DNA from: Gemmata sp.
GTDB taxonomy: Bacteria > Planctomycetota > Planctomycetia > Gemmatales > Gemmataceae
Reading direction: 5' to 3'
Length of the DNA stretch: 64,000 nt
Assembly: GCA_025055115.1 (NCBI GenBank)
Contig: JANWYJ010000075.1
Coordinates: 1 to 64,000, forward strand
Shown here in pieces: positions 22,285-23,156 of the stretch (position 1 is its first letter; every line of letters begins with the position of its first letter). The notes below the pieces were generated by a model. It was not told where the DNA came from. It did not search any database and saw only the letters and a program-made list of their open reading frames with translations. Position numbers and translations under genes: made by a program.

Positions 22285-22554
22285 CGGTAGAACCTCCAGG
22301 ATTGTTGATCACAGCCGCATATTTTAGCCACATCGGTGGCTCCGCCCAGCGCCGGGTTATCCGGACCAACTGCTCTTTGTGCCCTGGTAGAAAAGACCAA
22401 GACCATAGCTGGAAAGGTAGTCGGGTGAATCTGGAAAAGCTGTACGCAGAGGTTGCGGAATCGCGGCGGCTGTTCTAAGTTGAGGTAGCGAGCGATTCGG
22501 CGAGTTTTGGTCGCCGGATCGTGGCGTGCGCTGGCCGGTCTCGCTGTCGCCACA

Positions 22555-22665
22555 CCTTTCATCCTCGAAAGGGCAAACCTATCGCGAGGTAGGGGCGCAA
22601 AGCCACGGGCCTGCGGGGTTAACCCCTCACCTTCCTGAACCGCAGGTCGCCGGGTTGCCGAAGGG
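22555..22665 (+). ncRNA. Cyclic di-GMP-I riboswitch (GEMM) aptamer
   Basis: The sequence follows the GEMM-I consensus closely. P1 pairs CCTTTC (22555-22560) with GAAGGG (22660-22665). The first arm is GGGCAAACC, then CCTATC-GCGA-GGTAGG, a 6-bp stem with a GNRA tetraloop (22578-22593), then GGGCGCAAAGCC, whose GCC (22602-22604) pairs with GGC (22572-22574). The second arm is CCTGCGG (22610-22616) with CCGCAGG (22640-22646), carrying an inner GGGGTTAACCCC hairpin, followed by the receptor-side GCCGGGTTGCCG. The 5' strand of P1 can alternatively pair with GAAAGG (22566-22571), giving a ready switching partner. The first gene downstream on this strand is the zinc protein at 22884. Confidence 0.9.
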
Positions 22666-22694
22666 ATTGGGCGGTGAATGCCTGTCCATCCCTG

Positions 22695-22725
22695 GAGTGC
22701 CCTCAGGCTACTTGAAGCGGCACTC
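22695..22725 (+). promoter_or_regulatory. Hairpin downstream of GEMM aptamer, possible expression platform
   Basis: GAGTGCC (22695-22701) pairs with GGCACTC (22719-22725) around a 17-base loop, 30 bases after the aptamer. No T tract follows, so it is not a classical terminator. The ORF 22678-22827 (49 codons from ATG) overlaps it and is not convincing as a gene. Confidence 0.4.
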
Positions 22726-22883
22726 TCTGTGACGCGGAACCACCGATCTTGCATCGCTAGCGCCGGCGCACGCCTCGCTCCTTTTGGGCGCAATGCCGTG
22801 ACGCGACCATCCCCATCCCGTTGGTGAATCTTTTCACTATCCTAATTCCTATCGCCCGAATCGCGACCGAACCACCAGTACCC

Positions 22884-23156
22884 ATGGCCGAGCCAGTGCG
22901 CTGCCCCTGTGGTGGTCAGCCCGAGTGCGAATTGTGCCTCGGTGCCGGGGTGTACCGCTACCAACCCGGCCCCCGCGGATGGATGCCGTTTCTTTGCCCG
23001 ACCTGTCAAGGACGAGGGCAATGGCCGCGCAACGGCCACAACGAGCCGTGTTTGACGTGCCGGGGCAGCGGCCACATCGATCCGGCCTATCCGCCGCGGA
23101 ACACCAGCGTCCGGGGGTTCCTCCGGGATATGTGGCGGGTGTTCTTCGGCGGTTGA
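22884..23156 (+). CDS. DnaJ-type zinc-finger (CxxCxGxG) protein
   Basis: 90 residues from the ATG at 22884 (MAEPVRCPCGG); a TTG at 22821 would add 21 residues but no good signal supports it. The protein is almost entirely a cysteine-rich zinc domain with three CxxCxGxG motifs in order: CELCLGAG, CPTCQGRG and CLTCRGSG, as in the central domain of DnaJ, plus an N-terminal CPCGG. There is no J domain or membrane segment. Stand-alone versions act as zinc-binding or chaperone-like proteins. A c-di-GMP-I aptamer 219 bases upstream on the same strand makes it a candidate c-di-GMP target, although the long gap leaves this open. Confidence 0.75.
   Translation: MAEPVRCPCGGQPECELCLGAGVYRYQPGPRGWMPFLCPTCQGRGQWPRNGHNEPCLTCRGSGHIDPAYPPRNTSVRGFLRDMWRVFFGG

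Follow-up and report, generated by a model that had tools for sequence, protein, structure and literature searches.

The c-di-GMP-I aptamer present in a 64,000-nt stretch of a Gemmata sp. genome (contig JANWYJ010000075.1; hereafter the window) very probably belongs, judging from comparisons with related genomes, to a structured stand-alone RNA of about 300 nt (here type A), of which it would form the sensor domain. Almost every riboswitch known so far regulates in cis the mRNA of which it is part. The type A RNA is predicted to be a single-copy, structurally constrained stand-alone c-di-GMP RNA that spans many genera of one planctomycete family, which suggests that Gemmata-group bacteria read c-di-GMP with a free RNA.

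Our cmscan analysis of the whole window places the aptamer at 22563–22663 of the forward strand and by covariance-model score makes it a member of RF03167 (c-di-GMP-I-GGC, a variant of c-di-GMP-I/GEMM-I): 65.5 bits against a gathering cut-off of 59, E-value 3e-13, full-length match to model positions 1–80. The sequence-only reading had proposed a GEMM-I-type aptamer and a covariance-model search for it; the search gives a gathering-level match to this variant family, and the tetraloop (GCGA), CGCAAAGCC and GCCGGGTTGCCG on which the proposal was based are all present in the window. The GGC variant was reportedly described in papers in NAR and PNAS in 2017. A whole-genome search found one RF03167 copy above the cut-off, the runner-up scoring 22 bits. 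No second Rfam family reached the gathering level in the window, scaffold included (cmscan, with one overlapping same-clan match of lower score dropped from the list); the type A RNA can be assigned to RF03167 by its aptamer alone. The window aptamer keeps the fold and the ligand-contact residues of RF03167, which Rfam lists as cis-regulatory, whereas the type A aptamer lies inside a putative stand-alone RNA of about 300 nt with the additional helices H1 and P0. In the Vc2 riboswitch c-di-GMP is contacted by G20, A47 and C92 (PMC4744006). These correspond, in a mapping done by hand, to G22572, A22599 and C22658 of the window, none of which changes in 35 aligned relatives. The genome encodes two GGDEF proteins, so c-di-GMP can be made.

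Conservation exceeds the aptamer by about 76 nt upstream and about 120 nt downstream. From 5' to 3' the type A unit comprises a promoter-like element, hairpin H1, the 5' strand of helix P0, helix P0b, the segment ACRCCUUUCAU, the aptamer, hairpin PD, a variable hairpin, the 3' strands of P0b and P0, and a U tract. In the window the features are:

22453–22481, forward strand: promoter-like element TTGCGG (22453–22458), 17-nt spacer, TAAGTT (22476–22481), based on conservation
22487–22785 (approximate), forward strand: putative type A stand-alone RNA, about 299 nt, scaffold conserved in 44 genomes
22494–22520, forward strand: hairpin H1, 10 bp, loop GUUUUGG, with covariation
22521–22535, forward strand: 5' strand of P0, pairs with 22762–22776
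22537–22544, forward strand: 5' strand of P0b, partner 22734–22741, 7 pairs in the window
22553–22562, forward strand: pre-aptamer segment, ACRCCUUUCAU invariant in relatives, its CCUUUC pairing with GAAAGG
22563–22663, forward strand: c-di-GMP-I-GGC riboswitch aptamer, by RF03167 score and invariant contact residues
22663–22692, forward strand: post-aptamer hairpin PD (GGGAU...AUCCC), 92.5% of cells paired
22693–22728, forward strand: variable hairpin H2, in the minimum-energy fold
22762–22776, forward strand: 3' strand of P0, from pairing tests
22778–22785, forward strand: CUCCUUUU tract, a weak U tract and probable 3' end
22884–23156, forward strand: gene of the 90-aa triple CxxCxGxG protein, outside the RNA unit, homologues mostly unlinked

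Both ends of the RNA are predicted. Most of the 38 relatives aligned here keep TTGC-N17-TAnnnT, with its spacing to the RNA start unchanged; a strict promoter consensus scan found none at the type A locus of the window, so the promoter assignment relies on aligned conservation. Transcription would start at about A22487, near AGC(A/G)AACG, a motif found across type A. At the other end, many relatives carry GCUUUUUU, compared with the weaker CUCCUUUU of the window, where we place the probable 3' end; a simple terminator scan detected none at this locus, and such a scan, with its loop limit of 8, is blind to a long-range stem. Folded alone, the type A RNA of the window gives z = -4.1 against dinucleotide shuffles, and PD in isolation folds at -14.8 kcal/mol, while the sequence and length of H2 differ between relatives. 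A hidden coding gene in the 219 bases between the aptamer and the next ORF was considered and rejected, the longest ORFs inside the RNA varying in length and position among relatives.

The scaffold is closed by helix P0 (about 15 bp), which encloses the aptamer. When the flanks of the aptamer were searched for pairing in each genome alone, P0 emerged at about -43/+95 in most of them, even though its strands diverge widely (for example GGGGCGUGCGUCGGCG/CGCCGACGCACGCCCC versus GGAGCAAGCCGAAGCAU/AUGCUUCGGCUUGCUCC). The mean pairing score was 36.9 for cognate flanks and 22.5 for non-cognate ones, and the cognate mean was reached in none of 10,000 permutations. In the alignment, from which six divergent copies (G025, G063, G080–G083) were excluded, changes on both sides were found at 13 of the 14 pairs of P0, at all 10 pairs of H1 (94% of cells paired) and at 36 of the 50 pairs of the whole structure. 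Cells changed on both sides numbered 280 against 88 expected, a count that no shuffle out of 500 attained, and the signal was lost when the partner was shifted by 1–3 columns, a comparison in which the unslid version is somewhat favoured by the structure having been taken from the window sequence. Such compensatory changes across the scaffold imply selection on the RNA. P0b has less support than P0, the MAFFT alignment showing pairing in only 56% of its cells, and takes the form CCUGGAUC/GAUCCAGG in other genera. Among four later sequences not used before, P0 is clear in three, and the fourth (L234) is indistinguishable from non-cognate flanks by score.

The sequence-only reading had also claimed a competing partner for the 5' segment of the aptamer, and this partner exists: CCUUUC (22555–22560) can pair with GAAAGG (22567–22572) in a hairpin that we term K. 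Covariation is uninformative for K because the helix is almost invariant, with 99% of cells paired; in G072 and G073 an extra U in K is offset by an extra A. K is part of the predicted minimum-energy fold in all 33 sequences folded, and the P1 state lies 5.9–14.6 kcal/mol above the K state (median 8.3), ligand and tertiary contacts not being counted. Since K and P1 have G22567 in common, K should open and ACRCCUUUCAU become free once the ligand binds; from these folding models we infer a switch between K and P1. Our best explanation, which as a whole we judge about as likely to be right as wrong, is a c-di-GMP-controlled free RNA with its own promoter. P0 would close this RNA, and transcription would probably end at the U tract that follows the 3' strand of the helix. 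In the ligand-free state CCUUUC would pair with GAAAGG at the start of the aptamer; with c-di-GMP bound, P1 and the aptamer core would form, K would open and ACRCCUUUCAU would be exposed. The exposed segment, which is rich in pyrimidines, would then most likely work in trans, jointly with the C-rich P3 loop of the genus, by mRNA pairing or protein binding. Taken separately, the trans mechanism is a plausible proposal to which we give slightly less than an even chance, and action in trans, like the promoter and the 3' end, is predicted from sequence features. The broadest form of the proposal can be put forward only tentatively: clade-wide, free, single-copy c-di-GMP RNAs in Gemmata-related planctomycetes, with ACRCCUUUCAU as a seed freed for trans action, accompanied by a second, terminator-ended stand-alone class (type B, below). 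If true, clade-wide trans-acting RNAs would be the RNA counterpart of c-di-GMP effector proteins. Type A makes the question of RNA as a trans-acting c-di-GMP effector testable, and its main helices provide comparative constraints.

Of 59 relatives, 40 have RF03167 matches with E <= 0.001; in the set of 95 family genomes, 57 have one with E <= 1e-5. Comparison of 142 loci with their flanks, using simple sequence rules and for type A also a hand-made list, revealed three architectures: type A (45 loci), type B (25) and type C (72); the loci share descent, and the counts of sequences do not equal independent events. Type A occurs in 44 genomes, that of the window included, and is single-copy in 43 of them, the exception being G018. 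The type B loci come from 25 genomes, 11 of which also possess type A. With genes called by a simple codon-usage script, the gene next to a type C aptamer is in the sense orientation in 58 of 64 cases and within 40 nt of the aptamer in 19, the start codon often lying 2–15 nt past it. The products sampled include Flp pilin, TadE, type IV leader peptidase, and trypsin-PDZ and S8 subtilase secreted proteins. By this gene context, type C loci are ordinary cis switches for Tad/Flp pilus and secreted-protease genes. The sequence-only reading had noted that c-di-GMP riboswitches usually control motility, surface or exopolysaccharide genes; it is these apparently true cis copies that precede targets of the expected kind. 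Individual loci of this type (L076, L094, L172, L050, L144) have trypsin-PDZ proteins, FG-GAP/cadherin subtilases, Flp pilins and TadE downstream, and a planctomycete c-di-GMP regulon may thus be readable from the type C aptamer alone. Type A shares its aptamer with these cis switches of the same bacteria, which in contrast often have a target gene close by. No sense gene lies within 40 nt of the aptamer at any of 44 type A or 25 type B loci; the nearest sense gene of type A is at a median of 368 nt, and the next gene is antisense at 14 of these loci for type A and 17 for type B (Fisher p-value 0.005 for A versus C and 7e-8 for B versus C, related genomes being treated as independent). By these criteria types A and B look like stand-alone RNA genes.

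The sequence-only reading had suggested that the aptamer controls, as a new effector, the gene of an uncharacterised zinc-finger protein that follows it. Its description of 219 bases lacking a clear gene, followed by a 90-residue ORF at 22884–23153, holds, but the gap is mostly the 3' half of the RNA (the post-aptamer hairpin, the variable hairpin, the 3' strand of P0 and the U tract). The encoded protein resembles DnaJ_CXXCXGXG below threshold (PF00684: 24.9 against 32.7; PF15777, anti-TRAP: 20.9 against 32). Homologues were found in 27 of 95 family genomes and lie beside the RNA in 5–7: the start codon is about 190–310 nt past the aptamer only in G000, G017, G018 (copy C578), G014 and G004, in the last of which the gene has an in-frame stop, while in G008 and G010 the distance is about 0.8 and 1.8 kb. 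In other genomes they are unlinked, and homologues are missing altogether from many genomes with type A. The CxxCxGxG gene is therefore a neighbour and not a conserved target, a role that synteny rules out, and the prediction that it responds to c-di-GMP is hereby corrected. In some members of this family of ~90-aa triple CxxCxGxG proteins (window 22884–23156; L184–L213) a TATCCT-like box recurs loosely about 45 nt upstream of the gene.

A more general cis model, a riboswitch whose long expression platform governs read-through into whatever gene lies downstream (in the window the CxxCxGxG gene, then one similar to sdhB/frdB), is in our opinion unlikely. It could explain why the CxxCxGxG gene comes next on the same strand in the five genomes listed above, including the copy with the in-frame stop, and the excess of sense genes downstream of type A (30 of 44, p-value 0.02, kinship ignored), and long two-terminator platforms are known in c-di-GMP-I switches, Bc1 for example (PMC11218506). 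However, we found no downstream gene or function shared across the 44 type A loci, whose downstream genes are diverse and in 14 cases antisense, and the CxxCxGxG gene is usually distant or on a different contig. A cis terminator would have no need of a helix such as P0 that already begins upstream of the aptamer.

The stand-alone RNA has its closest precedent found in merRNA of Bdellovibrio bacteriovorus, a massively expressed sRNA of 445 nt that contains a c-di-GMP riboswitch, lacks a conserved downstream ORF, was proposed to store c-di-GMP and is not conserved outside Bdellovibrio (PMC3627812). merRNA is the single reported stand-alone c-di-GMP RNA that we found in the literature. Type A agrees with it, as far as sequence signs go, in having a c-di-GMP aptamer within a putative stand-alone sRNA and no conserved ORF downstream; it differs in being shorter (~300 nt), in spanning many genera instead of one, and in that its aptamer is enclosed by a covarying helix and faces a competing hairpin.

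The same architecture makes it conceivable, with a probability that we put somewhat above that of cis read-through and still low, that type A is a reservoir or sponge as proposed for merRNA (PMC3627812), an abundant RNA that buffers the ligand and whose scaffold serves only for stability; the P0 scaffold and the terminal AGC/GCU pairing would indeed make the RNA very stable. A pure sponge would need neither the competing hairpin K nor an invariant ACRCCUUUCAU outside the aptamer. Ligand-controlled riboswitch-containing sRNAs that act in trans are known for cobalamin: Rli55 and EutX sequester EutV. The proposed type A RNA would likewise be a ligand-gated non-coding RNA acting in trans, with a different ligand and a different aptamer. 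We consider it very improbable that the scaffold is merely an attachment site (attB) or other part of a mobile element, with the aptamer as a passenger. Genes of PF00589 integrases do adjoin the cut copy in G011 and the duplicated copy in G018, but type A is single-copy in 43 of the 44 genomes that contain it, the compensatory changes extend over the entire scaffold, and the pattern is missing from viral contigs, in which neither the 3' half of the RNA nor its core was matched.

Insertion into tRNA genes is well known, and integrases often pick conserved RNA genes, a preference that explains the integrase association of a free type A RNA. In G011 the RNA is cut directly after CATCCTCGAAAGGGCAAA, and the next gene there codes for a tyrosine recombinase (PF00589; locus L183). 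In G018 there are two RNA copies with identical cores (L065, L066): copy C748 has the promoter and the 5' half, together with a 3' half that pairs with the latter through its P0 strand, and copy C578 has an integrase gene alongside and the CxxCxGxG gene downstream. In two genomes, then, elements with tyrosine recombinases appear to have integrated at CATCCTCGAAAGGGCAAA, taking the type A RNA gene for their attachment site, which speaks for an RNA gene in its own right. In G018 the 3' half brought by the element seems to keep the RNA whole, provided that we have inferred correctly which half is native; an assembly error is possible at this site, as the records are metagenome bins.

Analysis of the phylogenetic distribution revealed no type A signature in 391 other genomes drawn evenly across the phylum (392 with that of the window). 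Type A is apparently confined to relatives, since this draw matched the genome of the window alone; the matches in the family and order come from separate searches, not from the even draw. Exact matches to the type A core in named records (30) belong to planctomycetes, many of them Gemmata or Gemmataceae, Gemmata sp. IIL30 included, with one labelled just as bacterium. Of the 19 genomes of the genus, 13 contain a copy with a scorable aptamer and G011 contains the cut copy; no intact copy was found in 5 of the 19, therefore the type A RNA is not indispensable. Matches to the pattern with two mismatches were obtained in G009 and G003, and the former proved on inspection to lack the scaffold and was dismissed as a chance match.

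Variation within the aptamer accompanies these architectures. Three loci with the type A scaffold (L217, L234, L237) have an altered base in P3, with GCAAAGAGACAG...CUCUGCCG replacing GCAAAGCCAUGGG...CCAGGCUGCCG, and apparently retain the equivalents of A47 and C92; they may constitute a sub-variant. A C-rich ACCCC(U/A)C occurs in the type A P3 loop in the genus of the window and in some others (e.g. in the window aptamer, 22563–22663). Type B loci (L077, L080, L055, L048, L078 and 20 more) consist of a promoter-like region, an H1-like hairpin, the aptamer and, after it, GGAUGGACGGGACCCGUAAGUAUGCUUGGUG plus an intrinsic terminator. The gene that comes next is mainly antisense, and the P3 loop of type B is often G-rich (GAGGGGG).
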